This document shows, piece by piece, positions 5,301 to 20,374 of a stretch of 24,331 nt of DNA (positions are counted from its first letter, which is position 1; every line of letters starts with the position of its first letter). Both the position numbers and the translations under genes were made by a program. The notes below the pieces were generated by a model. It ran no database searches. It was not told the DNA's origin and saw only the letters and a program-made list of their open reading frames with translations. Source of the stretch: a virus. The stretch spans positions 1-24,331 of the IMG/VR virus record IMGVR_UViG_3300042946_000144; one strand, given 5' to 3'.

Positions 5301-7320
5301 CCTCATCTGTCTTAGCATCTTTCTCCCATTCAGGATTGTAAATCAAGTCACTAAGTACATCATCCACCCTACCAAGAACAGATGCCACTTGCATAAAACT
5401 TCTCATCTCTTCAGCAAAGTCAGAGAGTTGTTTATTGTCAACATCTTTAGATGTAGCAGCCATGTCTTTATAGATCATGTCATAATCATTGATGATGTTA
5501 TCACCTTCTTTTCTCATAACAGTGACCACCTTAATCAATTCTGACATGTTCAATGTTCCTTGGGCCATTCTCATAGCTCTCTTGAGAGTGTTTATTCTCT
5601 CAACCTTAAACTCACGCTCATCCTCATCTGAAACCTCTTCTTTCTGAATTTGTTTTAAAATACCATTCAGTTCAGAAAGGAGTTTATCCAAAGCTTCAAA
5701 TCCTGTAGATTCAGATTTTTCAGAAACAGGAACAAGAGTTAGGTCTGTAATCTTTGTTGTATCTACAGATCCTATTGCTATTCCTTTTAGAGCTAGTGGA
5801 GATTTTGGGTCTGCCTTATCCAATAGTCCAAATTGCATGGATATTGGAATAGCTCTGTTCATACCAAACTCTTTCACTCCATAATTATCTCTCAGTATTT
5901 CCTTATATCTACCAAGCTGAATATTAAAAGCTCCTTGCTTAAACCATGCTATATCATCTCCTTTGATGTGCATGAACTTCCAGTCTATGATGTGTGTCTT
6001 ACCAGAAGGTTCAACCACAAGCATATCGATTGTACCAGCCTCTTTGTTTTTAGAATCATAAATAATCACCTCAGAGAATACAAGTGGAGTTTTACCATCC
6101 TTCGAAAGACTATCTATAAGTTCTACATAATAGTTTTCCAGCATGTCATACATCTGCGTATCTTCTAGATTGAACTTAGAAGGACGAGGATCAGCTTTTT
6201 CTTTTCTTGTACCATCCTTGTTAAAATATCTATCGTGTATTTCTTCAAAGTCTTTATGTCCCTTTACACCAAGAGTTCTTTTAAACTCATTAAACTTCTG
6301 CTCTTCTTTTGTAAACACCTTACCTGGGAACTTTGATCTATACCAAGCCTTCACTCTATCAGTAACCCTCTTAGTGATTCTTTCATATACACCTTCAGCG
6401 TTCTTTGCTTCATACCAGTTATTAGCTTCTTCTGAATCAAGAAGCAGAGGATCTGCTGCCTCTTTACCTTCCACTTTCTTTATACTATCCCTTGTCTCAA
6501 GGATCTTCTGCTGTATGTTTTTCTGTTGGTCAGATAGTTGGAACATCACACCTTCTGAAGCAATATCAGAAACTGTTCCACCAACTTCTCCTTGACTAAC
6601 TATACCAGCAACTTGTTCGAATATAGAGATGTTTGATTTTTTATAAATACCTCTAATCCAATCAGTTATAGCGTTCCACCAACTTCTGATCAAGCTTCTG
6701 TTCTCTTCTTGCATCAGTTCAGGGAACTCTGTAGATCCTTCGCTCTCATTTATAATCAACTCAGCAATCAGTTTATCTACAGCCTCTTTCTTAATCTTAC
6801 GAATATCTGGTTTACCATTAGGAAGCTGATATGCTTTATTGTTCTTATAGGCTTCAAGTGTTTGTTTGTATATCTTGAATCTTTCAATCTTAGCTATCAT
6901 CTCTGTTACCATCTTTGGATTGGTTTGTTCCAAGATGGCTGTAGCTAAATGGACCATTTCCTCTGTAAGGGCAGCATCTTCTTTTCCTTCAGAGACAGCA
7001 ATAACCCCTCTGACAAGATCAGCAACACCACTTGCAGAAGTTACATCTATCTCTGGATGTGCCTTAGCATAGTCTGTAAGTGATTGAATGTCAACACCCA
7101 TCTTCTTAGCAGCTTCTTTCACCTTATTCAAGGTTTCTTCTGAAGCTCTAGATGCAGGCATTTCTTCTATTTGCAACATTATTCCCTTCTCAACATCACC
7201 ATATTCTTCCTGAGGAACAACTCCATCATAACTATCCCATAGGTAGTAGGCAAGATCTTCACCTCTAGCTGCTACAAGATTTTTCCAAGAATCAAGATTT
7301 ACATTAGGACAAGTTGCCAT
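2395..7320 (-). CDS. Large virion protein (1,641 aa) with PD-(D/E)XK nuclease domain, probably ejected
   Basis: The ATG at 7320 follows the TAA of the RNA polymerase gene with one base between them; the stop is TAG. Regions in order: an N-terminal CPNVNLDSWKNLV...AYYLWD opening, a style seen on large phage ejected proteins; a helical segment with E120-E121-M-V-H124, which looks like a degenerate HExxH helix; an FQLSDQQ segment; a PD-(D/E)XK nuclease domain at about 400-480 with E417, D432 (GTIDML), D446-W-K448 (IIDWK) and Q468/Y472; a long helical, charged middle (about 550-1150); and a C-terminal part with a hydrophobic helix at 1498-1516 followed by five aspartates (1517-1521). The nuclease fold acts on DNA in its family; here it could process host DNA or help genome entry. 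The protein is in the same coupled gene set as the virion polymerase, so packaging and ejection are likely. A large virion protein is well supported. The nuclease call rests on motif spacing read by eye. Confidence 0.8.
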   Translation of the reverse strand: MATCPNVNLDSWKNLVAARGEDLAYYLWDSYDGVVPQEEYGDVEKGIMLQIEEMPASRASEETLNKVKEAAKKMGVDIQSLTDYAKAHPEIDVTSASGVADLVRGVIAVSEGKEDAALTEEMVHLATAILEQTNPKMVTEMIAKIERFKIYKQTLEAYKNNKAYQLPNGKPDIRKIKKEAVDKLIAELIINESEGSTEFPELMQEENRSLIRSWWNAITDWIRGIYKKSNISIFEQVAGIVSQGEVGGTVSDIASEGVMFQLSDQQKNIQQKILETRDSIKKVEGKEAADPLLLDSEEANNWYEAKNAEGVYERITKRVTDRVKAWYRSKFPGKVFTKEEQKFNEFKRTLGVKGHKDFEEIHDRYFNKDGTRKEKADPRPSKFNLEDTQMYDMLENYYVELIDSLSKDGKTPLVFSEVIIYDSKNKEAGTIDMLVVEPSGKTHIIDWKFMHIKGDDIAWFKQGAFNIQLGRYKEILRDNYGVKEFGMNRAIPISMQFGLLDKADPKSPLALKGIAIGSVDTTKITDLTLVPVSEKSESTGFEALDKLLSELNGILKQIQKEEVSDEDEREFKVERINTLKRAMRMAQGTLNMSELIKVVTVMRKEGDNIINDYDMIYKDMAATSKDVDNKQLSDFAEEMRSFMQVASVLGRVDDVLSDLIYNPEWEKDAKTDEEKEALADRKQVLFNLSKESRAIRKTNSDLEIAYKKFADKHIGERNLVKGLLSAEAVVKGLSSMFRGASELPTAAMSILVKLTSNARAIASQEASKKVEGLMDIRKRLAERGGDLRKLVQSIYQKDEKGGIVNKLILKFSKDFYKTIDEKALKGGDIEWIKENVDLDAYRAEASEMMKKRIERIKKNRYGETDEEEQDIRERLIEQEKKKWDIDRDDFNGWNNYILKRHPKDTWLSKEYKAIMNDKDLMDLYNFITEFNKEAKDVNYLSNRASSVFLPFVRKTMAESLAWDYGTTAVSNFTNNFDLKMDDAGLGSINEITGELENSIPRYYTYDFSATDVPGVNDYSQVSEDLFKNMILYIQQVEKYKYMSEVEGQIKLVKTVEEFKNHLKTNRAGDVVFDADGKPEELKGNDENTQLFDQFMRNLLYGQKYVLSDADVPLGIGNVANFIKKAVNKVTGREVFKPNDNPSATSLIKTMDAANRAFQLKTLGLDFMAGAINIFGANLQVAAQSGNYFKAREFLANETKLVGNRFSSSEEREMFVQLIDAFLPLKEDPNYENLKKAGMTRLTRQNFSDMLMFFMREPEQHVEKTMFLTLLDNVMVDNGKIVNIRDFVKNKYKGRGNSSAVFRETQKKIEEEIEELKRTKSISATKKLENGKLVIPGLDMSNRDEMLRLSNLTRRLSANVTGSLSESDINKMQMSVWTRSMMVFKNWIPKLIDTRFSEFRKVSDDFSVRIEDDGTITGEKYDVGRMRLWFYVIGTSIKDKTSNVMNILNMNDRGVEALDKMYEDFREKYRKQTGKELNMSKDDFIDLVRTNLRNQMKELAILLSLLGASFSLGFMAPDDDDDRATKNRFRYYQKVIDKFIGEVSFFYSPEEFQRVLSGSVFPAVSVMSDIERFISNLSAEITGMDLDDETETPDEVRQKSMPIKYGARMIPLGKSLLTYISIFDSDFAKEFDITIQKENNLR
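2773..2829 (-). other. Hydrophobic helix near the C-terminus of the 1,641-residue protein
   Basis: Residues 1498-1516 (LAILLSLLGASFSLGFMAP) are the clearest uncharged hydrophobic stretch in this protein. They are followed at once by five aspartates. The length suits one membrane crossing. An internal virion protein that inserts into the host envelope during ejection is a plausible reading, but a buried core helix cannot be excluded. Confidence 0.45.
5905..6078 (-). other. PD-(D/E)XK nuclease catalytic core
   Basis: Residues 415-472 of the 1,641-residue protein contain FSEVIIYD (E417), AGTIDMLVVE (D432), HIIDWKF (D446, K448) and NIQLGRYKEIL (Q468, Y472). Order and spacing match the RecB/Cas4-like branch of the superfamily: helix glutamate, aspartate on strand 2, D-x-K on strand 3, then Q-xxx-Y. 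All presumed catalytic positions are present, so the domain looks active. Confidence 0.75.
6949..6963 (-). other. EExxH motif, possible degenerate zincin helix
   Basis: Residues 120-124 read E-E-M-V-H in the helical context ALTEEMVHLATAILEQ. It resembles a zincin HExxH helix in which the first histidine is glutamate. I see no third ligand with certainty, so an inactive domain or a chance match remains possible. Confidence 0.35.
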
Positions 7321-7321
7321 C

Positions 7322-10300
7322 TTAACATTTTGATTTTATAATTTTACCTAATTCAGTTTGAAGCTTTGAAAGAGTGGTCATCTCAGCTGGACTCAAACCT
7401 TTTGTTTTCTTTTTCTCCTCTAGAGCAGATATCTGTTCTTTGAGAGAAGCTTCATCTTCTGGTAGGTCGAGTTGTTCTTCTGAAACAATCTTACCATCTT
7501 TCTTCTTGAGACTCAAGAACTTATCAACAATTCCTTCATCAGCTGCCTCATTTGGAACTTTCAGGAAGTTGTTATCTATTACAGACTCTTTAGCCACATC
7601 ATAAAACTCATTTGCTCTGAAGCTATCACCCCAAGCATTGATCATCTTGTATACGTAGTTCAAGTAAACAATTCCATCTTTTCCTGGAGATTCGTACACA
7701 AAAGGATTTCCTGTAGAATCATACACCTTTTTAAACAGCCCTTTCTTTATGTATGAATAGTCACCCTTTTCACGCATTTCTTTCTTCTTCTGTTTTGTGA
7801 TGTTGTCTTCCCATCTGTATACAATGATATCATTTTGAGCTTCCCTGGTTCTCATTGAAATGTTCAACAACTGAGGAACATCTCCGTTTTTAATTGATGA
7901 TTGTATAGCCTTAGGGATAGTTTTTATTGGAAGATTGTAATAAAGTTTACCCTTCTTACTTTTTCCCCATCTAGCAATCATATAAGGAACTACATCATCA
8001 TTGTTCCAGTTGTTCCTTTCAAAGATGTTCAGGTTATAAAACTCCTCTAAGTTAGGAATTGTTTCTAATTTAGAAAGGGTTTTATTGTAAATTTCTTTGA
8101 AATCCTCATATGGCAATAACGAAGTAAATGATATTGGGGAGTTTGACACACCACTTTGAAGCACTGAAAGATTCTTTATTCCTTCATATAGAGGAGAGTT
8201 GATTGAATTTAGGTAGTCTCTCAGTTCACGGAATGCATATATCAAGCTGTTTTGGTCGTACACTTTATTATCTCTTCCTTTCACCTTGATGTTGTTCACC
8301 CCATCATCTGATATTTTAGTGGAGAACATTGGAGTTAACACATTGACAATGTGATTGTTCTCCATTGGGTGACCTGGTGTTTCTTTAACCTTTGTAACAA
8401 AGTCAAAGAGTTCTTTAGCCACACCACCGTTATCAATCATCACCTCTCTAACAAGCTTGTTGAATTCCTGGTTTGTTTGAACAGCCCAGTCAAACATGTC
8501 AGATACAGCCTTCTGTGAAACTTTTACAAAGTCTCTATCGCTCAAACCAACGTAAGGCAGTAAAACCTTTTCCATTACGTTTCTAACATTAGGCTTATCT
8601 GAGATCAAGATTGTAGAGAATGCATCTCTAAAGTCTGAAATTCTCTTAGCCAAGTTTCCAAGGAATGAATTCTTCAATATTTCATCTACTGAGGAGATGA
8701 TTGTGTTTTGAGCTTTTAACAACTGCATCAGCTTCTTGAATACCAAGTATGGATCATTGATTGTAGCTGTATCAAAGTTAGACCCCTGTGTTACGTAGAA
8801 CATTTGTTCAGCCAACTTAGCATATTTCAAAAACTCATTCAGGATATACTGCTGTTCAACCCTGCCACTAATATCAAACTTAGTCTTACCAATGTTTTCG
8901 AAAAGCTTTGTCTCTGAAGGAAGTTGATCAATATCAGCAAATCTTGCTTCTGTAATGTCTTCTTCCTCATCTATTGCATATTTTGAATCCTTCTTAATTT
9001 CAGAAACATAAGTTGCATTGAATATGTAAGAATATCCAGAATTCTCCAAGCTACGAAGGTAGTCACGGATGATTGGCTGATTCATAAAATAAGCCACAGT
9101 GTCAATAGGTACACCAAGCTTTGTAAGGAATAAGAATGTTCCAGCAACGTTAGGTGATGCTCCAAGTTCCATAATCCAAGGACCTTTGGATATATCCACA
9201 TATCCATCGATGAACTGACCTATGATATCAGAGATGTATTCATTATTAGCATTCTTGATCATAGAGAGGGTTGGAACCATTTTCCCATTAATCTCAATCT
9301 TGTTATACTTCTCAAACTTTATATCTATATCATTAGGATTCATTGTTCCTTTTGTGAGCCAAAACTTATCATCAGCTGATAGTTTGTCAAACCTTGATAT
9401 ATCGATGTATATAGGCTGTCTTTGATTCAAGGAGTGATTTGTCTGGTTTACAGCAGCAATACCAATTGCATACTTACCTGTTACAAATGCATGTCTCAAT
9501 CTTGACATAAAGTGTCTGTTCAACATGTTTCCTGTAGAGGAATAGTCAAACGAATCAAATCCAAGCTTCTCTGTAATTTTTTCAGAAAGTTCTCTTAACT
9601 GATCTGCAGAGTTTGGCTTGATCAATTGTCCAAAGTTTTCTTTACTTGATACAAGGTTTTCTCCAGATTCAACATAGGCATTTTGCAATGACTTCTTATA
9701 CATCTTTTCAAAAATCCTATCTCTAACTTCCTTTCTTGTGGACTTTGCCATGTATTTTATGAAGTCATCTGTAATCTCTTGTTCAGAGAATGCATCTTTG
9801 AAAATGTTAACCATTAGCTTTCCTGATGGAGATTCTTTTGACATATCCTGAAGAGCAAGTCTTTCTTCTTCTAGGATTCTGTCAAGCTCCTTCAGTTTCT
9901 CAGGTTTAATGAATTCCCCAGCATCAAACATTTCGTCAAACTTCTTTCTAGCTTCTGTTCTGTTTATTCCAAAGAATGGAACAGCTTTTAGCTCACCTTT
10001 AGAATTTGTAAATACATTCTTCAGGTAGATTGACAATTTATCAATATCAAAATCCGATCCAACCTTCTTAACCATTCCAGAAGGAATGATTACGTTATCT
10101 CCAAACTCTCTAGGAAGGAACTTTTTAATTACAAATGCATCAATTGAGTTTTGTTTCTGTGTAGGAATACGGAATGCAAGACCTCCCATGATTTTCTTAC
10201 CCTCTTCAGTGAGAACCTTTTCACCATCTTTCTCCTCATACATTCTTTCAAGAATCTCTTCATCTGACAAATCACTCTCAAACCATCTACCCACCATGAT

Positions 10301-13300
10301 TTCACATACACGTTTACCGTCTTTATCCTCATAGAACTTCAAAACATCTGATGTATATGCAGTCTTTCCATTTACAGTTTTCTTTTGGGCACGTACTGAT
10401 TCAAGCATTGTAGAAGGTAGCTGAACCTTAAATCCACCCACCATCTTTTGAGAAATAACTTCTCTATCAGCAATTGAATACAGGATGTTTCTTACAATCT
10501 GGTAAGCTGGAGTTGCTTCAATAATCACTTCTCCATTTAAGAATCCTGATAATGAATCAATTATGTTATCATTAACTTCTCTTTTTAAGATCTCTTCTCT
10601 CAGGGTTTCGCTAACCTTTGCTCTGTTTTCTTCAGGAATTGAGAACTCTCCATCCTTTTCTACAATACCCAGATCATTCAAAAGGTTTCTATATCCCTCA
10701 TCTGTAAGAGCCTTCAGAAGATTTTCATTGTTCTTTATCTCTTTATATAATGGAGATCTTTCTTCTTTTTGTTCTTCACTTAAAGTGATCCACTCTTTAT
10801 ATCTCTTTGCTGTGAACTTCTTACTTTTTTTAGAATCCGCAAAATCAACAGGAACTCCTGATTCCATAAAGTCCATTGTAATCAGCTTAGTCACTTGAGA
10901 ACCTCTTGTCAACTCATCATCCTTAGAGGGAACCTCTGACTGAACACTGATGATAGAGAATGGAATGTTTACAGTTCCTTTGAAAGGAGCTTCATTGAAT
11001 GTGTTGTCCTCATTATAAACAGCATTAGTTTCTGTTGTTCCAACCTTTCTACCACTCTTGAACACAATATAATCTACACCATCTCTTTGCATTTTGTTGT
11101 AAAGCTTCACTGAATTAGATTCAGGATCTAGCTCCATCATAACACGATATGACAGTGGATAGAATGCAAACTTATCCAACACTATATCATTCCATGGATT
11201 ACCATCGTTCTTGTTTCCAGATACGATAGGTTTTTCTGTGGTGTATGCACTTCTAACCATTGGGTTGCCCTGCTTAAGAAGTTCTATTTCTTCTGGGCTT
11301 AACTTAAGCTTCTTATGGTTTTTCTCCCAAGCAATATCATATCTGTATTGTCTTTCCTCATCAGAATTCCATCTACTAGCACGGATTCTGAAATTACGAT
11401 AGGATTTAAAATTGATTATACCAGAACCATCAGTCTCCTCATAGGCATCTTTATACAAATCTTGGTGTCCTGCTATTTCAACTAAAGCCTGAACATCTTC
11501 CATTGTTGCAGAAACAAACTGATCAGTAGTCATGTCTGTATACCCAATATCTCCAGGTTTATATCCCTTGTTCCAAACTTTATTCAAAACTCCATTTATC
11601 TCAGGAGAGTTAGAAAGAATTGCCTGACGAGGTGAGTTGAAGTTCTTGATACGCTTCAGCTCATCTGAATACTGATAAGGATCAGAATATAGAAGTTTGT
11701 GCATTTCTATATTGCTAATCATATAATTGATACTAAGAGCTTCCAAGTTTCTATCCAGGAAGATTTCATCCATTCCTGTTTTAGAATCTTCAAGGTTCAG
11801 ATTATCAGCAATAAATCCATCTTCTGTTAAAGATATTATATTGTAAGACTGTAGAACACCTTTGAAGTTCTTTGTTTCTTTCTGAACATAGTTTTTAATA
11901 GCAGCGTTTATCTTTGATTCAAACTTCTCATAAACACTTTCGATAGATCCTTCTGCTTTAACAATCTCATCATGCAGTTCTTTTCCAAGGATGTTTTTAA
12001 AGAATCTCATATCAGAAGATTCTCTCTGCTTAATGCCAGCTTTCTTCTGCTTATCTGTAAGTTTGAGCTTTACAATGTTTCTTCCTTCTCTAGAAAGTTC
12101 TAGCTCAGACATGAAATATCCTTTGAATATCTCGTTAACCAAGGATAGGCCATATCTCAAATCATTTACAGAAACAGCATTTCCCATGTAAAGCATGTGC
12201 TCCATAGACGCATCTCCAGGGACAAGGTTAAGATAGTATCCAGCAAGATTCAAGTTTATCTCCTGAATAAGTCTGTCTCTATAGTTTAGCTTTGAAGATT
12301 CTTTTCTCTTTCCTCTACTTTCATCCACTGTACCATCTACATATCCAGGTTTGAAAAGTTCTTCAGATCCTTTTATACGATCACCATTCTTAAGGAACAT
12401 TCTTTGAAGAATGTTAGAACCTTTTGTGAAAGAGTCTGTAAAAAGATATTCATATTTTGTTCCTTCAACAGCTTCCTTTGTAAACTCTGGAAGTTGTGAA
12501 AGGAAATCAAAAAGCTCACTCACTGCGTTTGTTCCTATGTAAGATTGAACACGTTCACCGTTTACATTAAAGAATGTACTTTCAAATTCAGGATTTTGAA
12601 TAGCTGCCTGAACAATACCAAGATCAAGTAATCTACCATCCATTTTGAGAACCTTTCCAGATATGGAAACTATCTCATCTGCATCCTTGATACTCTTGTA
12701 TATACCACCAACAGCATCTTTGAACCTTTCAATTTGATTATTGGGGAGTCTTAATATGTCAGCTTTGTTAAATTCAATTCCAAAATGTTTCAAGAACTCC
12801 ACCATTTCTGGAATTGTTCCAATCTTATCTTTCTTCAGAGAATCAGGAACACCTACATATTTCTTACCATCCGCAGACTTTTTGAAATATTTTGTTCCAC
12901 CTTTAATCTTTGCAACCAGATTTTCTCTAAATTCAGACTGAAGTTGTCTAGCAGCTGTTGAAAGATTTGAATCACCAACAACAACATCACCATTTTCAAG
13001 AACAAACACATTCTTTACAGAAGGGTTTTGTTTCTTAAATGTCTTCCAGAAAGCACTAATGAGATTCAAACCATTCTCGTTCTCAACCTTCTTAAGATCT
13101 AATCCAGGAGTTTCCCAACTAGACTTTGTAAGACGTGTGTACAAGTCTCTATAGTTAGGATCATTTTCAGCCATCTTTCTGATCTTCTCCAACATTTGTT
13201 CAACTCCTTGAGAGTTGTGGATATTGTTCATCAAGCTGATGTAAACCTTGCTCATAGGAAGAAGAACATATCCACCTATAGATGATTTTACAGGAACAGC

Positions 13301-16300
13301 TTTTCCTTCCTCATTTATCTTTTTCACACGCATTGTTGCAAGAAGAATCTTTACAGCAGGGCTAGCTTTTCTAAAACTATCTATCTTATTAGCTTCTCCC
13401 CATCCAGATTCTTTTGCTCTCTCATCACTCTTGATGGTTGCCTCATCATTTTCATCAAACTCAATAGAATACACTTTCAGATATTCTTCGTGTTTCTTAA
13501 CAATCTCATCCCACTGAGAGGTGACATTCTTCCAGAGAGCCACTTGTCTATCTATTGATGGTTTAACTTGTTCTCTTGTATATTTACCATCAACAATAGA
13601 TTTTTCAAAAGCTGCTCTGTTCTTAGCAAAGATTGTTTGAACATCTTCTTTCAATCTTGCATAAACTTCTTCTCTCTTGAGCTTTTCATTTATTCTAAAC
13701 AGGTCATCATCGTTCTTAATCATGTCAGTGAGCATCTTGTATGTCATGTGCTCAATGATTTCATGTCTCTGTTTACCAGATATTCCAATTAAGCTAAATT
13801 CACTATCTCCATCAGCATATGCTTCATTTATGTCAATTATTCCTTTTTTAGCATACGACAGATTTACGTGATAAGGGAAGTGGTTTTTGTAATAGCCATT
13901 TCCTATATTAGAGAAAAGCTTCTCTGTATTACTCAATGCTTTCTTTCCTGTAAAGAACTCTTGTATGAAGTTCTTCAGATCATAGAACAACTTGAGAATG
14001 AACGGTCTTCCACTGTTTGGTTTAGGTGGAACCTTTCCTTCTTGTACATAATCTCTGAATTCCTCAGCTAATTGTTCTTTAGCATCTTGATAGTTAGCAT
14101 CCTTATATGCAATTGTCTTACCTGTAACTCTATCTACAAAAGAACCTTTTCTGCTTCTGAATTCTTTAAGCACTGCATTTTGTTCATTTTCATCTGTGAA
14201 CATCTTCCAAACAGCCTCAAAGATTTCATGATATGCTGTACCAACTTCTGCATTCTCATAGATGTAAATAGCTCCATCCTTGAACATACCCCAAGCTTGT
14301 CTACCGTTTGTAGCCTGTATAACATTCTTCACTCTATAGACAGGAACATTTGGGAAGTTCTTTTTCAAGAATTCCTCAACCTTACTCCAATTCTCAGGTT
14401 GGAACTTTTCTATCTCATTCTCAATCAATAGGCGATATTGTTCCTCATCTTCGTCTGTAGAGGAAGCACTTGCTTGTCTAATCATCTCAGCTTCTTCCTC
14501 AGGAGTGAGTGATGCTGTAGATGCATCTGATACAGTGGTTGTAGAAGTAGGTTTAGCCCCACCTTCTAAAGTAGTTAGTTTAAATACTTTATTTTCAAAA
14601 TCTTTTCTATCAAATGTTTCTGTAAACTTCTCACCATCAGGATAAGTTACTTCAACTTCTACAGTATTATCTGTAGCACTTAAAACTTTAACTTTAGTTC
14701 CTTCATAAGATTCTTTTGAAGCAGCTCCATAATCAATGAGAGGTGTAGATATTTCTCCTGAAGGACTATCTATTGCTACTTCTTTATTTTCTAATACATA
14801 CTCAACTCCAATAACTTTAGCATCTGTAGGAGCAGCTGGTTGTGCAGGGGCTGGTGTAGGTTCTTCTTTCTTGTTTATTTTATTCTGAATCTCCTGAAGT
14901 TGAGGAGTGAGCTTCACTATTACGTATTTAGCAATGTTTGCTCTAGCCTCATCTTCTGATATGTTTTTTGCTTTTGCAAGTGCTGCTACAGTTTCCCCTG
15001 TGAAAGTAGGAGTGAAACCTTTAGCACCACCTGTAGTTACAAATTCTTCACCGTTTATAGAAAACTCTACAGATCCATAATCTGTTCCTTTAGAGTCAAC
15101 GATGTTCATTTTGTTTTTAGAAGATCCGCTTAAATCAAACTTATCTCCTGATGGAGTGGGGGTTGGTGTAGCTGTTTGAGCCTTAGGAGCACCTGGTGTA
15201 ACTACAGCTGATGTAGCAGCTTTCTTAGGAGCAGTGATTACAAACTCATCAGCATTGTCTGTTGTATAGAAATAAACACCTTCTCTGTTCACATCATCTT
15301 CACTTGTCAAAGGTCTCATGATTGTAGACAGAGGGAGTTCTTCCGCTTTTCTTCCCTTTTGAGAAAGCAGATATGTCTGATAGTTTGGCCAATAAGGCTT
15401 ACCATCAACTGTTCTTGTAATTGGAGAACCATCTTCTGCAAATCCTACAATCTCATAGTATGGTTTGTTCCAATAGTCCTTACCTGTAGCAAGTGTGGAG
15501 TTAACATTATTGTACATGTTCTCCAAGATCATGAGGATTTGATCTTTGTTATCCCTGATAGACGAAGGTGTGAATGGAAAATCTTTTCCTTTTCCAGACA
15601 TGTTCAACATCCATCTTTGAGAATTCTCATCAAAATCAAACCAAATACTGTTATATCCAGGTCTCTCTTTAGGAGTGCCCCAGTATATAATAGACTTCAA
15701 CCAACTAACTAGAAGTTTAGATTCTTCAGATTTAAGCCCTTTCTCAGGATCAACCATGTTTTTAGAAAGCTTATAGATAGCTTCATACACTGTACTAGCC
15801 TCATTCTTTGTAAGCTTTCTGTTCTTAAGTTTAACCAATCCAATACCAGGGATTCTTAAGAACACCCTTCCTAATGGAGTTTTGAATGAAACTGTTCCTT
15901 CAGAAGCAGTGTCATTTGTTGTTGGTATTTTCAGAACTGGATCTCTCTCAAGTTGGTCTTCTGTTACAAGACCTGCATCAACTACAGAAGTTGTAGCATC
16001 AAAGTTGGTCTTTGTATTACCTTCAGAATCAGTGAGTTTTACGTTTTGAGCAATTCCAAAAGAAGCATCCACTTTATGGAGTTCAAGAGTTGATTTTGCT
16101 AAGGTTGCTTTTCTCCAAGCAGCATATTGTTCCTTCACTTGATTCACCACTTCTGCAGGAGTATCTTTTCTAAACATACTCTCAGCCTTACCACTCTTTG
16201 ACCACTTAGCATCCCACTCAAGTTTCTCTGTAGGATATGTTTGGTAGATGGCACTATCTAGCTTATTATCTCCAGCCTTAAGAGGTTCACCATTTGTATC

Positions 16301-19300
16301 AACAAGTTCAAATGACCCATCGTCATTCAGAGAAACCATTACAAGAGCTATCACTTGATCTCTTGGAATAGACTCATCTATTACACCTTCCTCATTTTTT
16401 CTAAGATGGTCTATTAATCCAGGGATAAGTTGATCCTCGTTACTAGCTGTAATATATACACCACGGATCTTGTTTCTTAAAGACTCTTTTAGTTTTGGAA
16501 GATTTACACCAAACTTATTAGCTCTATCGTGATGAGGTTTTCCTTGGGAAGCAGCGGTTGCTCTTGGGAGAATAGATGTTTCTTTCTTACTCTCTGGTTC
16601 GTATGTTTTGCTAAACTCTTGTGTCTGAACACCTTTGTATTCAGTTCCAAGAATCTCGCTCATGATTTCTTTAGTCTTTAACAAGAGTCTCTCTTGTTCT
16701 TTCTGCTCTTCGTATTTCTTAACAGTTTCTTCAAACGCATCAAGAATAACACTCTTAGCTTTTAACTCCTTCTCATATTCTGACAGCTGACCTTGAATAG
16801 TTTCCAAACTTTCTCTAAGCTCTGATACAGTACGCTCATTAGGAACAATGTCAAGATCTTCCACTTGAGCAACAATATCTTCAACTGTTGCAAGGTCTTC
16901 TTTGAAATTAGGATTGAGTTTTAAGAAGTTAGGATTGGCTTTCAAGAAATCAACCCACTCTTGTCCCATGATTGTTGGAACATTTGGATAGGTAGATTCA
17001 AACTTCTTGATCAAATCTCTAACCAAATCAAGAGCCTTCTCAAGAGCACTCTCTGTGTTATCTATTATCTTAGAAAGAGCATTGATGTTTTCTCCTGTAG
17101 AAAGAATCAATGATTCTAATGAACTAACTTGTTCTTTAATCTCATTCAAGAATTCTCTACTGTCTGTAGGGAGCTCATCGATGTTCTGAGCAAGATCCAT
17201 TAAATATGACTGCGTAAACTCTATCTCATCTCTCTGAGCTTCAAGTTCTTGTATCTCAAGACGCAATTGTTCTTGCATTCTTGACAATCTGTTTGCAGCT
17301 TTAATAGCATTTGCTGTTACCTTCTTGAAGTTACTTTTCTTTGTAACCTCTCCAGCTTTGATTTTATTCTCAATAGCAACAAGCTCGTTTGTAATTCTTT
17401 CAAACTCTGTATACTTCTGCTGAATAAGTCTTGATGTTTTGTCAAACTTTTCAGTGAGATTGTTAAACAGATTGTTGATTATTTCAAGACGAGCACCTCT
17501 CTTCTTATTTATATCTTGAGTTGTCTTACCAGACTCTTCTCTATTCTGTATATCTGCCTGGTCTGCTGCAGTGAGAGTTCTACCAAAAGAGAAAATCCCT
17601 TCATCAAAACCTTCTTTAGGTTTGAATGAATCAAGTGACACTTGTACACTTTGAATCTTACCCTTGCTATCTTTGTATGTAAAATACAGGTCATCGTTCT
17701 CACTATCGTATGTAAGTCTTCCTGCAACCTTACCTTTCTTAGCTTTTCCAGTGTTCCAGTATACAACGTTGTTTATATTTCTAAGATAGAAATTAGCGTT
17801 CTCGTTTGTTTCAACAGAGCTAACCTTACCAAGCTTATAGCTAGCAAGAACTTCTTTCGACACATCTCTAATCTTACCAGAGCTATCCTTTATCTTAATT
17901 GTACCATCTGAGTTCTCACCAATGATTGTTAGTCTTGGGAACTTATAAACTTCATTACCGTCCTTATCATATTCAACAACACTTCCTAAGAAATACTCAA
18001 CACCAGTTTCATAATCCTTAACACCATCTCTGGTTTTAATTTTAACTGTAGGAGTGATTTCTTTATCTGGAAGTACTTCTGCTTGCTCCTCCTTATACTT
18101 CTCTGGAGATTTCATTATATCATTAAGCTCTTGTAAAATAGTTTTTCTACGAAGAGACATATCTAAATAATCAGAAAAATCTTCCTTCATCTGATCCTTT
18201 ACAGCATCTGCAACATCTAGGCTGTTTATACTAGAAACAGCTTTTGAAATAGCTGAAACTACAGCTTCTTCCTTAACTGCTGTTTCTAAATCACCTGCTT
18301 CCCAACTAGCTGACTGTCTTAAAACTTCATTTATGGACATATTGTCTATTCCAGTTGCAGAAATATCACCACCTAGTTCCATCAAACGTTTGTCATAGTC
18401 ATTGATTTTAGAAGATGCATAAACCATCTTATCAATAACTTCATCTGAATATATTCTATTACCTTCTGCATCCAGTCTTCCTCCATAGCGAATGTTGGCA
18501 GATTCATACAATGAGCTAACTTCTCCTACATGATTTTCAAACTCATTTAGTTTTTTCAGGTAGTCTTCTCTTGATAGATTGGTTGGAGCACCACCGTTTG
18601 CTTGAAGATTTTTATATCCATCTTCGGTAGAAGCTTGTTTTCTACGTTCATTTATATCATCATATATCATTTCAGCTCTACCATACTTCACTCTAGTAGA
18701 GATGTAATTGTAAGATTGATCGTGCTTATTATCTAAAAATCCAGATTTATTTCCTTCTCTTACAAACTGTTCACTTTCTTCTTGAAGTTTTATACCTCTT
18801 TGTAAAGAGTTTGTTCTTTCTATGAAAGCTTTTGTAAAAGTGTTATCAGGAGTGTTCAGTTCTGCAAGAAACTGTTTTGTATTTTTATCTCTTAGTTTAT
18901 TTTCTCCATACTTACCTTTTGCTTGCATCAATCCTCCAGAGAGTCCTCCAAGAAGTATACTCTCACCACCTTCCTTGGAAGTGATAGATTCTTTGAAAGC
19001 AGTTGCTGCTGAAGACCCAGCATTTGCAAATGCATCTAAAAGATCATCTGTTTCGTTTCCTTCATATGCTTTATTGTAGTAGTCCTGAACTCCTACATCA
19101 ATTGATGTTTGAAGAAATTCTTGTGCAGATTCTTTTGGATCAAATATGTAAGATTTTACAAATCTGCTAGCTTTTGATAATCTTGATGTAGGCTTTGCTA
19201 CAAATTTACCACCTTCAAGCATAACATCATCTGTAGACTTGAAAGCATTAGCAACAGCTTTGTTTGGTTTATAGGAGCTACCTAAAAGATAAGGAAGTTG

Positions 19301-20374
19301 TGTAAACTCTGTAACAGACAAAACTGCCATGTTAGCCATGAATGATGCATTACCTACATCTTTTGACAACTTGTCTATTTTCTCTAAATCTTGTCCAGTA
19401 GGATCAAATCCCCAAGTATCTCTATACTCTTGTATCTTCTTTTCTCTAAAAGCAGTTGCTGTACCAATAGACTCAAAAGAAGATTCTCCTGCAGAAGAAT
19501 ACAGAGACATTATAGATCTTCTTGTAAAGTCTTGTACACCTTCTACGCGAAGGAACTGGTCTGAAACCTTCTTTAACTCAGTAGCTGCTTTTTCAATATC
19601 ATATACACTCTTAATTTCCTTCTGAAGGATTTCAGCAGCTTCTATGTTCTTACCTTGAGAGAACAGACGTGCTGCACCTTTGTTAAGATTTGAGAAACTT
19701 TTCCAAGCTTCTGTATACTTTCCAACTTTATCAAACATTCCACCAACACCTTTTCCTATAACTCCAATTCCTTTCGCAGCAAGATTTCCTGAGTATATAG
19801 CACCAACTGCAAATCCTGTATTCTTAACTAACTTATCAAATAAGAAGTTTGCAGTGAACAAGTTATCTGGAGAATACCATGCTGCATTCTTCTCATTATC
19901 TGTATAGTAGTTTGGAAGATACCTATTATCTATTTCTTTATTTATCTCATCTAATGACTCACTGATTTCATTTTGCCATACGTCAGAGAGCTTTCCTGAA
20001 AAGAAAGATTTACCTATGCCATACACAGTACCAAGACCTCCAGCAAAAGTTGTAGCTGCAAGACCAACACCTTTCAATGTTCCATTTACAGCCTTGTCAA
20101 GGAATGATTGGTTTCTACCGTGTATATCTTCATTGTTTGCTCCGTATATAACGTTGTTATATCTTCCTGTTAACAGGTCATCAACTTCAGATTGATAAAC
20201 AGTTGACTGCTTTGCACCAGTATCAATAGGAACTGATGCGAACAATGACTCAAGTGTATCTTTTGATTGTCTGTAAGCAAGACTTCCTGTTAACTGAGCA
20301 GGACCACTGTTGTCTAAAGGAACAATATTTCTTGGTCTACCAGGTAGGTTTACAGGTTTTAACTCTTCAGGCAT
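7322..20374 (-). CDS. Giant virion RNA polymerase polyprotein (4,350 aa), crAss-like
   Basis: The ATG at 20374 follows the previous gene's TAA by one base; the stop is TAA. The C-terminal half has the hallmarks of the crAss-like single-chain RNA polymerase. A first presumed double-psi barrel at about 3060-3175 has lysines K3106, K3110 and K3163. The second, at about 3397-3450, has R3402-I-P and ends in D3441-F-D-I-D3445. Downstream is a GKYAIGIAA segment at 3633-3641. In phage phi14:2 the homologous gp66, about 2,200 residues, is packaged in the virion and transcribes early genes. Its three DFDID aspartates bind catalytic magnesium. Here about 2,100 extra residues precede it: a YQSEVDDLLTGRYNNVIYG...NNEDIHGRNQSFLDK opening (about 60-95), glycine-rich hydrophobic stretches (100-127, 186-217, about 464-493), SH3-like beta modules (about 790-915), a coiled coil (about 955-1240), proline-rich linkers, and a zincin-like domain with H2049-E-I-F-E2053. 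It is therefore both polymerase and ejected structural protein, probably entering the host with the DNA. No frame break is seen. Confidence 0.93.
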   Translation of the reverse strand: MPEELKPVNLPGRPRNIVPLDNSGPAQLTGSLAYRQSKDTLESLFASVPIDTGAKQSTVYQSEVDDLLTGRYNNVIYGANNEDIHGRNQSFLDKAVNGTLKGVGLAATTFAGGLGTVYGIGKSFFSGKLSDVWQNEISESLDEINKEIDNRYLPNYYTDNEKNAAWYSPDNLFTANFLFDKLVKNTGFAVGAIYSGNLAAKGIGVIGKGVGGMFDKVGKYTEAWKSFSNLNKGAARLFSQGKNIEAAEILQKEIKSVYDIEKAATELKKVSDQFLRVEGVQDFTRRSIMSLYSSAGESSFESIGTATAFREKKIQEYRDTWGFDPTGQDLEKIDKLSKDVGNASFMANMAVLSVTEFTQLPYLLGSSYKPNKAVANAFKSTDDVMLEGGKFVAKPTSRLSKASRFVKSYIFDPKESAQEFLQTSIDVGVQDYYNKAYEGNETDDLLDAFANAGSSAATAFKESITSKEGGESILLGGLSGGLMQAKGKYGENKLRDKNTKQFLAELNTPDNTFTKAFIERTNSLQRGIKLQEESEQFVREGNKSGFLDNKHDQSYNYISTRVKYGRAEMIYDDINERRKQASTEDGYKNLQANGGAPTNLSREDYLKKLNEFENHVGEVSSLYESANIRYGGRLDAEGNRIYSDEVIDKMVYASSKINDYDKRLMELGGDISATGIDNMSINEVLRQSASWEAGDLETAVKEEAVVSAISKAVSSINSLDVADAVKDQMKEDFSDYLDMSLRRKTILQELNDIMKSPEKYKEEQAEVLPDKEITPTVKIKTRDGVKDYETGVEYFLGSVVEYDKDGNEVYKFPRLTIIGENSDGTIKIKDSSGKIRDVSKEVLASYKLGKVSSVETNENANFYLRNINNVVYWNTGKAKKGKVAGRLTYDSENDDLYFTYKDSKGKIQSVQVSLDSFKPKEGFDEGIFSFGRTLTAADQADIQNREESGKTTQDINKKRGARLEIINNLFNNLTEKFDKTSRLIQQKYTEFERITNELVAIENKIKAGEVTKKSNFKKVTANAIKAANRLSRMQEQLRLEIQELEAQRDEIEFTQSYLMDLAQNIDELPTDSREFLNEIKEQVSSLESLILSTGENINALSKIIDNTESALEKALDLVRDLIKKFESTYPNVPTIMGQEWVDFLKANPNFLKLNPNFKEDLATVEDIVAQVEDLDIVPNERTVSELRESLETIQGQLSEYEKELKAKSVILDAFEETVKKYEEQKEQERLLLKTKEIMSEILGTEYKGVQTQEFSKTYEPESKKETSILPRATAASQGKPHHDRANKFGVNLPKLKESLRNKIRGVYITASNEDQLIPGLIDHLRKNEEGVIDESIPRDQVIALVMVSLNDDGSFELVDTNGEPLKAGDNKLDSAIYQTYPTEKLEWDAKWSKSGKAESMFRKDTPAEVVNQVKEQYAAWRKATLAKSTLELHKVDASFGIAQNVKLTDSEGNTKTNFDATTSVVDAGLVTEDQLERDPVLKIPTTNDTASEGTVSFKTPLGRVFLRIPGIGLVKLKNRKLTKNEASTVYEAIYKLSKNMVDPEKGLKSEESKLLVSWLKSIIYWGTPKERPGYNSIWFDFDENSQRWMLNMSGKGKDFPFTPSSIRDNKDQILMILENMYNNVNSTLATGKDYWNKPYYEIVGFAEDGSPITRTVDGKPYWPNYQTYLLSQKGRKAEELPLSTIMRPLTSEDDVNREGVYFYTTDNADEFVITAPKKAATSAVVTPGAPKAQTATPTPTPSGDKFDLSGSSKNKMNIVDSKGTDYGSVEFSINGEEFVTTGGAKGFTPTFTGETVAALAKAKNISEDEARANIAKYVIVKLTPQLQEIQNKINKKEEPTPAPAQPAAPTDAKVIGVEYVLENKEVAIDSPSGEISTPLIDYGAASKESYEGTKVKVLSATDNTVEVEVTYPDGEKFTETFDRKDFENKVFKLTTLEGGAKPTSTTTVSDASTASLTPEEEAEMIRQASASSTDEDEEQYRLLIENEIEKFQPENWSKVEEFLKKNFPNVPVYRVKNVIQATNGRQAWGMFKDGAIYIYENAEVGTAYHEIFEAVWKMFTDENEQNAVLKEFRSRKGSFVDRVTGKTIAYKDANYQDAKEQLAEEFRDYVQEGKVPPKPNSGRPFILKLFYDLKNFIQEFFTGKKALSNTEKLFSNIGNGYYKNHFPYHVNLSYAKKGIIDINEAYADGDSEFSLIGISGKQRHEIIEHMTYKMLTDMIKNDDDLFRINEKLKREEVYARLKEDVQTIFAKNRAAFEKSIVDGKYTREQVKPSIDRQVALWKNVTSQWDEIVKKHEEYLKVYSIEFDENDEATIKSDERAKESGWGEANKIDSFRKASPAVKILLATMRVKKINEEGKAVPVKSSIGGYVLLPMSKVYISLMNNIHNSQGVEQMLEKIRKMAENDPNYRDLYTRLTKSSWETPGLDLKKVENENGLNLISAFWKTFKKQNPSVKNVFVLENGDVVVGDSNLSTAARQLQSEFRENLVAKIKGGTKYFKKSADGKKYVGVPDSLKKDKIGTIPEMVEFLKHFGIEFNKADILRLPNNQIERFKDAVGGIYKSIKDADEIVSISGKVLKMDGRLLDLGIVQAAIQNPEFESTFFNVNGERVQSYIGTNAVSELFDFLSQLPEFTKEAVEGTKYEYLFTDSFTKGSNILQRMFLKNGDRIKGSEELFKPGYVDGTVDESRGKRKESSKLNYRDRLIQEINLNLAGYYLNLVPGDASMEHMLYMGNAVSVNDLRYGLSLVNEIFKGYFMSELELSREGRNIVKLKLTDKQKKAGIKQRESSDMRFFKNILGKELHDEIVKAEGSIESVYEKFESKINAAIKNYVQKETKNFKGVLQSYNIISLTEDGFIADNLNLEDSKTGMDEIFLDRNLEALSINYMISNIEMHKLLYSDPYQYSDELKRIKNFNSPRQAILSNSPEINGVLNKVWNKGYKPGDIGYTDMTTDQFVSATMEDVQALVEIAGHQDLYKDAYEETDGSGIINFKSYRNFRIRASRWNSDEERQYRYDIAWEKNHKKLKLSPEEIELLKQGNPMVRSAYTTEKPIVSGNKNDGNPWNDIVLDKFAFYPLSYRVMMELDPESNSVKLYNKMQRDGVDYIVFKSGRKVGTTETNAVYNEDNTFNEAPFKGTVNIPFSIISVQSEVPSKDDELTRGSQVTKLITMDFMESGVPVDFADSKKSKKFTAKRYKEWITLSEEQKEERSPLYKEIKNNENLLKALTDEGYRNLLNDLGIVEKDGEFSIPEENRAKVSETLREEILKREVNDNIIDSLSGFLNGEVIIEATPAYQIVRNILYSIADREVISQKMVGGFKVQLPSTMLESVRAQKKTVNGKTAYTSDVLKFYEDKDGKRVCEIMVGRWFESDLSDEEILERMYEEKDGEKVLTEEGKKIMGGLAFRIPTQKQNSIDAFVIKKFLPREFGDNVIIPSGMVKKVGSDFDIDKLSIYLKNVFTNSKGELKAVPFFGINRTEARKKFDEMFDAGEFIKPEKLKELDRILEEERLALQDMSKESPSGKLMVNIFKDAFSEQEITDDFIKYMAKSTRKEVRDRIFEKMYKKSLQNAYVESGENLVSSKENFGQLIKPNSADQLRELSEKITEKLGFDSFDYSSTGNMLNRHFMSRLRHAFVTGKYAIGIAAVNQTNHSLNQRQPIYIDISRFDKLSADDKFWLTKGTMNPNDIDIKFEKYNKIEINGKMVPTLSMIKNANNEYISDIIGQFIDGYVDISKGPWIMELGASPNVAGTFLFLTKLGVPIDTVAYFMNQPIIRDYLRSLENSGYSYIFNATYVSEIKKDSKYAIDEEEDITEARFADIDQLPSETKLFENIGKTKFDISGRVEQQYILNEFLKYAKLAEQMFYVTQGSNFDTATINDPYLVFKKLMQLLKAQNTIISSVDEILKNSFLGNLAKRISDFRDAFSTILISDKPNVRNVMEKVLLPYVGLSDRDFVKVSQKAVSDMFDWAVQTNQEFNKLVREVMIDNGGVAKELFDFVTKVKETPGHPMENNHIVNVLTPMFSTKISDDGVNNIKVKGRDNKVYDQNSLIYAFRELRDYLNSINSPLYEGIKNLSVLQSGVSNSPISFTSLLPYEDFKEIYNKTLSKLETIPNLEEFYNLNIFERNNWNNDDVVPYMIARWGKSKKGKLYYNLPIKTIPKAIQSSIKNGDVPQLLNISMRTREAQNDIIVYRWEDNITKQKKKEMREKGDYSYIKKGLFKKVYDSTGNPFVYESPGKDGIVYLNYVYKMINAWGDSFRANEFYDVAKESVIDNNFLKVPNEAADEGIVDKFLSLKKKDGKIVSEEQLDLPEDEASLKEQISALEEKKKTKGLSPAEMTTLSKLQTELGKIIKSKC
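10025..10186 (-). other. RNA polymerase catalytic barrel with DFDID motif
   Basis: Residues 3397-3450 read as GGLAFRIPTQ...FLPREFGDNVIIPSG...KKVGSDFDIDKL. The three aspartates of DFDID (D3441, D3443, D3445; bases 10040-10054) correspond to the metal-binding triad of the polymerase family that includes crAss virion polymerases and eukaryotic RNA-interference polymerases. The upstream R-I-P (3402-3404) and S3410 sit where the conserved RxPxxxxxS segment of this barrel is expected. All key residues are intact. Confidence 0.93.
10865..11173 (-). other. Presumed first double-psi barrel of the virion RNA polymerase
   Basis: Residues about 3068-3170 contain KFAFYPLS, YNKMQRDGVDYIVFKSGRKVG and TRGSQVTKLITMDFMESG. 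In two-barrel RNA polymerases the beta-type barrel supplies basic residues to the active site. K3106, K3110 and K3163 are the visible candidates. It lies about 270 residues before the DFDID motif, in the order expected for a single-chain two-barrel enzyme. Confidence 0.7.
14057..14230 (-). other. Zincin-like metallopeptidase domain, degenerate
   Basis: Residues 2049-2106 of the giant protein contain GTAYHEIFEAVWKMF followed by QDAKEQLAEEFRDYV. Phage zincin-like domains of this type usually read HExFH, with a later E-x-x-A-E-E-F helix supplying a third ligand. Here the second histidine is replaced by glutamate (E2053), while H2049, E2050 and the E2100/E2104 helix remain. Activity is therefore doubtful. 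It sits just before the polymerase, where it could be a structural spacer or a former self-processing unit. Confidence 0.65.
14820..15240 (-). other. Proline/alanine/threonine-rich linkers in the giant protein
   Basis: Two low-complexity segments flank a small domain: residues about 1712-1745 (with TPGAPKAQTATPTPTPSGD) and about 1836-1852 (KKEEPTPAPAQPAAPTD). A third Ser/Thr/Glu-rich stretch (about 1946-1982) lies before the zincin-like domain. Such linkers separate independently folded parts, so this looks like the hinge between the N-terminal ejected part and the polymerase half. Confidence 0.7.
16660..17500 (-). other. Long coiled-coil region of the giant protein
   Basis: Residues about 955-1240 are almost entirely Glu/Lys/Gln/Leu-rich with repeated heptad-like spacing, for example LRLEIQELEAQRDEIEF and ETIQGQLSEYEKELK. 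They break briefly near the TYPNVPTIMGQEW segment. A coiled coil or helical bundle of this length could form an elongated rod inside the virion or span part of the periplasm during ejection. Confidence 0.65.
19720..20080 (-). other. Glycine-rich hydrophobic segments, possible membrane-active region
   Basis: Residues 100-127 (GVGLAATTFAGGLGTVYGIG core) and 186-217 (TGFAVGAIYSGNLAAKGIG core) are hydrophobic, rich in glycine and alanine, and poor in charge. A similar GGLSGGL patch lies at about 464-493. In short-tailed phages the large ejected core proteins form a conduit across the cell envelope, and these segments are candidates for that role. This is inference from composition only. Confidence 0.45.

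Follow-up and report, generated by a model that had tools for sequence, protein, structure and literature searches.

A giant fused ORF in a crAss-like phage

We analyzed a stretch of 24,331 nucleotides (the window), the first 24 kb of the 111,215 bp virus record IMGVR_UViG_3300042946_000144. A single minus-strand open reading frame (ORF) at 7322-20374, with an ATG start and no internal stops, encodes 4,350 residues in which a gp47-type cargo protein is fused to a virion RNA polymerase (RNAP). This agrees with a preliminary description of the stretch, which had reported a 4,350-residue ORF with the motif DFDID at residue 3441 and about 900 residues after it. Three single ORFs, of 4,097, 4,497 and 3,769 aa, align with the frame over most of its length (37-53% identity). 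Since these alignments cover most of the frame and it also aligns with fused ORFs in 71 of 80 IMG/VR loci of the same clade, the frame is not a chance opening. Immediately downstream, at 2395-7320 on the minus strand, lies a gene for a 1,641-aa gp49-type RNAP-associated protein, homologous to the gp49-type proteins of cr108_1, Dulem 41 and crAss001.

Structural genes of the record matched those of crAss-like phages, including portal (E = 5e-47), TerL (9e-27), the major capsid protein (4e-12), IHF (3e-15) and a large muzzle-like protein (7e-99). Judged by TerL, portal, major capsid protein, IHF, tail and muzzle genes in a block of crAss order, the virus is a crAss-like phage (Crassvirales and close kin). 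Scans with PHROGs and Pfam gave no useful match and a plasmid search gave none.

Homology and predicted structure of the C-terminal half

The motif DxDxD occurs once in the protein, as DFDID at residues 3441-3445 (10040-10054, minus strand), with 905 residues C-terminal of it. Using tblastn, the C-terminal half matched cr108_1 (5e-23), phi14:2 g066 (4e-18) and crAss001 gp50 (3e-17). PDB searches with the single sequence missed 6VR4, the structure of phi14:2 gp66, and an alignment profile recovered it: a four-sequence profile of residues 2690-3850 (8825-12307, minus strand) matched 6VR4 with E = 3.1e-27, and the two DFDID motifs were aligned. We then modeled these residues with AlphaFold2 from a 45-sequence alignment (predicted local distance difference test 84.9, predicted template modeling score 0.83). 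The preliminary description had likened the polymerase half to phi14:2 gp66 and had named failure of the DFDID region to match a double-psi barrel as grounds for giving up the idea. We found that the top PDB match of the model in Foldseek is 6VR4 (E = 9.1e-31, template modeling score 0.63 over 1,161 aa), the next being QDE-1 at about 1e-5. The comparison proposed in the description thus came out in favor of its reading. By homology and predicted fold, the C-terminal half (about residues 2200-4350) belongs with the two-barrel virion RNAPs of crAss-like phages, in the gp66 family. The homologs in phi14:2 and crAss001 are known virion components that act in early transcription (PMC10172136, PMC10136315), and we infer the same packaging and function for the polymerase of the window.

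The N-terminal half and the gp47 family

Residues 60-480 (N1; 18935-20197, minus strand) form a domain conserved in the gp47 family of virion proteins. In searches with 64-sequence profiles, N1 matched proteins of bajarodcaudo (9e-55), phi17:2 (gp39, 3e-54), crAss001 (gp47, 7e-50), Leptolyngbya phage Lbo-JY46 (2e-42) and phi14:2 (g067, 1e-11). The following region, N2 (residues 480-860; 17795-18937, minus strand), is predicted to be helical up to a small terminal beta domain (about 775-860). The structure model of the N-terminal part, of low to modest confidence, is likewise mostly helical with a small beta domain, and Foldseek found no relative of it in the PDB. Residues 860-1260 gave weak coiled-coil-type matches in library searches. 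Residues 1726-1955 (14510-15199, minus strand) form a variable linker rich in T, A, K, E and P, the least conserved stretch of the protein, with 3-25% identity and many gaps over most of it in relatives.

The linker is followed by a zincin-like domain at residues 1960-2260 (13595-14497, minus strand), which corresponds to the C-terminal domain of crAss001 gp47. Profiles of the same depth matched dulem (9e-22), cr108_1 (5e-17), crAss001 gp47 (9e-16) and cr1_1 (3e-14). The window protein has HEIFE at residues 2049-2053 (14216-14230, minus strand), a degenerate form of the HExxH motif of zincin metallopeptidases in which the second histidine is replaced by glutamate. HExxE is found in 50 of the 64 family members and HExxH in the other 14; the motif is intact in crAss001, cr108_1, cr1_1 and one further relative (L013; L numbers are our locus handles). 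Segments near residues 102 and 188 are weakly hydrophobic, with a best 19-residue mean of 1.2-1.3, and a mean of 1.6 is reached in this region by 2 of the 64 family members.

The N1 homology and the position before the RNAP indicate that residues 1 to about 2200 are a gp47-type RNAP-associated virion cargo protein. Homologs of both gp47 and gp49 carry RNAP-associated annotation, and the annotation of g065, g066 and g067 of phi14:2 was derived from tandem mass spectrometry. In crAss001, gp47, gp49 and gp50 were detected in virions by mass spectrometry, and their ejection in a partly unfolded state was proposed (PMC10172136). The preliminary description had listed membrane-like, coiled-coil, linker and zincin-like parts in this half. 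Our results support the linker, and the zincin-like part as a homologous domain with a degenerate motif; the membrane-like part corresponds to segments of weak hydrophobicity, and the coiled coil to weak matches only. The proposal that this half is entry or ejection machinery is not supported as stated: the half belongs to a family of RNAP-associated cargo, and its model has no relative in the PDB.

Fusion and splitting of the cargo genes

The description had also stated that these parts are separate genes in several relatives. This holds for the N-terminal half, which is a gene of its own in phi14:2 (g067) and in crAss001 (gp47). Within the clade of the window, the fused chain is the rule. 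Seven of the 80 IMG/VR loci are truncated contigs, which leaves 73 informative loci, 71 fused and 2 interrupted (L085, L093). In one locus (L113) the fusion is triple and includes the gp49 part, giving 6,405 aa, and a provirus of Chitinophaga sp. YR573 (L180, contig 3725500-3745000) encodes a triple fusion of 5,485 aa. Giant single-chain RNAP proteins are also found in Suoliviridae (cr1_1, 4,551 aa; cr118_1, 4,946 aa) and in Flavobacterium phage Fpv3 (4,287 aa), and in p-crAssphage the RNAP is fused to the downstream part instead. According to a review, the RNAP genes of crAss phages can reach about 6,000 aa (PMC10136315). The fused chain is real, but since fusion is normal in the clade and present in other crAss families, neither the size nor the fusion is novel.

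Of the two interruptions, L085 looks like a genuine re-split at about residues 2170-2200. We rejected L093 as a split: its frame is broken, it carries no terminal cysteine and the interruption is probably artefactual, from assembly or a frameshift.

Cysteines at the ends of the cargo chains

The fused protein contains two cysteines in 4,350 residues, Cys3357 and Cys4350, the latter encoded by the last codon of the ORF (7325-7327, minus strand). The sole cysteine of the downstream 1,641-aa protein is Cys4 (7309-7311, minus strand), which we propose as the partner of Cys4350. A similar arrangement is seen in phi14:2, where g067 has one cysteine in 1,797 residues, its last residue; g066 has two, at residues 3 and 2179 of 2180; and g065 has one, at residue 3. 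In crAss001 the candidate partners are Cys2339 of gp47 (262.5 kDa) with Cys5 of gp50 (276.9 kDa), and Cys2404 of gp50 with Cys5 of gp49 (154.5 kDa); the three chains together come to about 694 kDa. These sequences follow a rule for giant chains that are nearly free of cysteine. True boundaries between chains carry a cysteine in the last 12 or so residues of the upstream chain and another near residues 3-6 of the downstream chain, and the outer ends of the cargo chains, fused junctions and intron breaks carry none.

In the clade of the window, 65 of 66 complete fused ORFs have a cysteine in their last 6 residues, the exception being the triple fusion L113. All 73 downstream proteins begin with M-x(1-4)-C, and 66 of them contain no other cysteine. 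At the outer ends, by contrast, a C-terminal cysteine was found in 0/67 downstream proteins and an N-terminal cysteine in 0/66 fused ORFs. Random placement gives an expectation of 0.33 for a C-terminal cysteine (last 12 residues) and of 0.37 for an N-terminal one; controls gave 6/67 and 10/67. We also retrieved 38 loci with profiles of other families and scored only the ends that could be counted. A cysteine was present at the RNAP C-terminus in 27/27, at the gp49 N-terminus in 27/27 and at the gp47 C-terminus in 18/18, and at the gp49 C-terminus in 0/25. Over twelve lineages the joint probability under random placement is about 10^-27 if relatedness is ignored.

Gene overlap was considered as a source of the terminal cysteines and rejected. 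In 16 of the 18 loci with a gp47 C-terminal cysteine, gp47 is encoded on the opposite strand, so that this cysteine is not an effect of gene overlap; in addition, the cysteine codon may be either TGT or TGC, and the spacing from stop to start is not constant. Violations at the N-termini of four RNAPs (L132, L135, L141, L153) proved only apparent, gp47 having been lost at the end of the contig or flank, or excluded by the length filter. We found no report of the rule in the literature searched, which did not cover the original gp66 paper or the 2018 crAss paper, and it is apparently unreported before, with priority uncertain to that extent.

Cysteine pairs follow chain architecture

We found that the cysteine pairs correspond in number to the chain boundaries. 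Three-chain phages have two pairs, two-chain phages have one no matter which chains are fused, and the two triple fusions have no pair. Neither the 6,405-aa nor the 5,485-aa triple fusion contains a single cysteine, and p-crAssphage and crAss002, in which gp50 and gp49 are fused, have a pair at the gp47/gp50 boundary only. At the gp47/gp50 break of L085 the chain ends read KKCKG and MGVC, an end cassette which resembles that of the next boundary: the new head is like that of its gp49-type neighbor (z-score 30 against shuffles) and the new tail resembles the one that its RNAP carries (z-score 7.8). Similarly, a chain split between the barrels (L149) has the ends KKCTTV and MANNC. In Spirosoma oryzae the end cysteines are retained even though other genes (about 4.5 kb) separate gp47 and the RNAP.

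Breaks at the DxDxD motif carry no terminal cysteine. The RNAP gene of cr108_1 is interrupted at the catalytic codons for DFDID by a group I intron (Rfam E = 1e-20; L010:19775-20093), and its annotated coding sequences are thus probably a single gene in two exons. L126, with weaker group I matches, L134/L136 and L152 have similar breaks at this motif, and L150 has one nearby. The pairs track boundaries, vanish on fusion and return at new breaks, which points to a function in joining chains.

Neighboring genes and related loci

Upstream of the fused gene, at 20376-23084 on the minus strand, lies a gene for a 902-aa protein without cysteine in a gp46-like position; it has homologs in Lbo-JY46 and in epsilon crAss phages. 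In the downstream gp49-type protein, hydrophobicity reaches its maximum for the block at residues 1498-1516 (mean 1.86), which may be a membrane segment close to the chain end, and residues 428-564 gave a weak PD-(D/E)XK match (E = 0.059). Window positions 2-1810 encode a protein with repeated NAIG-type units like the head repeats of trimeric (YadA-like) adhesins; it is likely to be a tail fibre, and it had no Pfam or PHROG match.

Several related loci deserve mention. The cyanobacterial Leptolyngbya phage Lbo-JY46 (L020) obeys the cysteine rule and has tail and cargo genes in common with this phage (the muzzle-like and N1 matches given above), although searching it by pattern did not turn up a DxDxD polymerase motif in the context expected. 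The crAss-like provirus of Chitinophaga sp. YR573 resides in a bacterial isolate and has, about 30 kb upstream of its triple fusion, a portal gene whose product is 52% identical to the portal of this phage. Spirosoma oryzae DSM 28354 (L181, L183), with its widely spaced gp47-type and RNAP genes, is a second isolate with a crAss-like provirus. A distant 1,346-aa DFDID protein without cysteine was found in an archaeal bin (L162, an Aenigmatarchaeota metagenome-assembled genome, 5419-9459).

Comparison with known systems

One close known counterpart of the polymerase is phi14:2 gp66, which has a homologous core with aligned DFDID, the same predicted fold, about 820-900 residues after the motif, and the same neighbors, g067-type before and g065-type after. 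It differs in being a separate chain of 2,180 aa with cysteines only at its two ends, whereas the RNAP of the window is fused behind a g067-type protein. All three parts of the crAss001 gp47/gp50/gp49 set, found in virions (PMC10172136), are represented in the window, but as two chains rather than three, and in crAss001 gp47 is on the opposite strand. The giant chains of cr1_1 and cr118_1 likewise combine a zincin-like domain and the RNAP, end in a C-terminal cysteine and are followed by a protein with an N-terminal cysteine. Unlike the window, they have smaller downstream proteins, an intact HExxH and very divergent sequence, and N1 was not detected in them by profile. In p-crAssphage, gp44 (4,070 aa, annotated "RNAP catalytic subunit fused to unknown RNAP subunit") and gp45 also represent a giant fused RNAP chain; there, however, the fusion partner is the downstream part, in the gp49 position, and the protein in the gp47 position is separate and annotated as fused to a zincin protease.

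The virion RNAP of N4-type phages is a T7-type single-subunit polymerase, with a fold unrelated to that of the window protein. It is comparable as a giant injected RNAP of about 3,500 aa with an ejectosome role (Schitoviridae; PMC12633501). In Thermus phage P23-45, gp96 likewise joins a two-barrel virion RNAP to a protein of the virion, but there the polymerase is N-terminal and the partner is the tape measure protein, so the fusion is a different one (PMC10770324).

Discussion

We think it reasonably probable that the window encodes a natural fusion of a gp47-type protein with a two-barrel RNAP, which forms a head-to-tail cargo thread with the 1,641-aa gp49-type protein, held together by fusion or by cysteine pairs. 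The order of the thread would be gp47, then polymerase, then gp49, and at each boundary that remains its continuity would be kept by a terminal pair, here Cys4350 with Cys4. We lean, slightly, toward a wider form of this proposal, in which the giant cargo of crAss-like phages and of related phages of other hosts is one covalent, disulfide-stapled thread with ordered ejection and reductive release, the staple being replaceable by fusion. The homology and fold of the polymerase, the gp47 and gp49 identities, the conservation of fusion and the cysteine rule with its exceptions are computed results, and from them we infer the disulfide chemistry, the threading and the order of exit. The likeliest chemistry would be an interchain disulfide that arises in the virion or later and is broken by reduction in the cytoplasm of the new host. 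The chains would be extruded in order, gp47 first, forming a single, partly unfolded thread that precedes the DNA, and after entry the polymerase would transcribe the early genes. Gene fusion would then be the genetic equivalent, and evolutionary substitute, of the staple. Disulfides have been observed in the tail and portal vertex of crAss001 (PMC10172136).

Several points weigh against this proposal. The evidence for an interchain disulfide is all sequence- and model-based. Oxidation would have to take place in the virion or later, given a reducing host cytoplasm and the anaerobic life of many crAss hosts. The counts of N-terminal cysteines allow for choice of start site, and the relatives counted are statistically non-independent. 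The 857-aa gp47 of p-crAssphage (L114) has its sole cysteine as the second-last residue (QSCR) with no obvious N-terminal cysteine partner in the neighboring gp46, csAssE-Sib epsSib_4 has a C-terminal cysteine whose partner was not located, and a distant homolog (L165) has no terminal cysteine.

Four other explanations were considered. The N-terminal half might itself be an entry channel, making one chain both ejectosome and polymerase, an idea compatible with a cargo thread. It would be the first link of the cargo chain, its segments near residues 102 and 188 are rich in Gly and Ala, and residues 119-198 are the stretch most similar in crAss001 gp47 (47.5%). Set against this, the hydrophobicity is under usual transmembrane levels in most relatives, no structural match was found, and gp45 and gp46, not gp47, are expected to form the channel (PMC10172136); we regard this role as possible but doubtful. 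It is unlikely, in our estimate, that the fusion has no role in delivery, with the N-terminal half a polymerase-associated subunit whose terminal cysteines aid non-covalent docking, for example at a metal site that they share or by way of a docking helix. The RNAP-associated annotation of gp47 and gp49 homologs agrees with docking, as does a short conserved helix-like tail before the C-terminal cysteine in several Steigviridae, and two thiols could form part of a metal site. There is, however, usually one cysteine per end, at positions ranging from the last residue to about -9, and the pairs are confined to boundaries and gone on fusion. A fused chain would still need docking, so joining fits better.

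We consider it improbable that the protein is a polyprotein which the zincin-like domain cuts during virion maturation into separate subunits like those of phi14:2. The domain does lie just upstream of the gp47/gp50 junction, and the motif is intact in the minority of relatives named above. But HExxE is the form in the window and in most relatives, the domain is retained also where the genes are separate, and the ends of separate chains bear cysteines that the fused junction does not. The terminal-cysteine rule suggests that the chains need to be joined rather than cut. Least credible to us, and very improbable, is that the cysteines are packaging tags which tie each cargo protein to the capsid or portal. 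Protein ends are typical sites of packaging signals and the cargo zone is near the portal (PMC10172136), but a tag on each cargo protein does not predict a first chain without an N-terminal cysteine, a last chain without a C-terminal one, or triple fusions with none.

A disulfide-stapled cargo thread would address how several hundred kilodaltons of polymerase pass through a tail narrower than folded proteins. The boundary cysteine pairs offer a concrete and cheaply testable answer, namely that the chains travel as one thread, and the proviruses in isolates of Chitinophaga sp. YR573 and Spirosoma oryzae may serve as laboratory material. The rule also bears on whether the fused protein of the window must be cut, and it would provide a sequence-based means to identify genuine ends of chains and the partners of cargo proteins in phages whose polymerases are unrecognizable. 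If true, the proposal would explain why fusion and splitting are freely exchanged in the crAss-like group.
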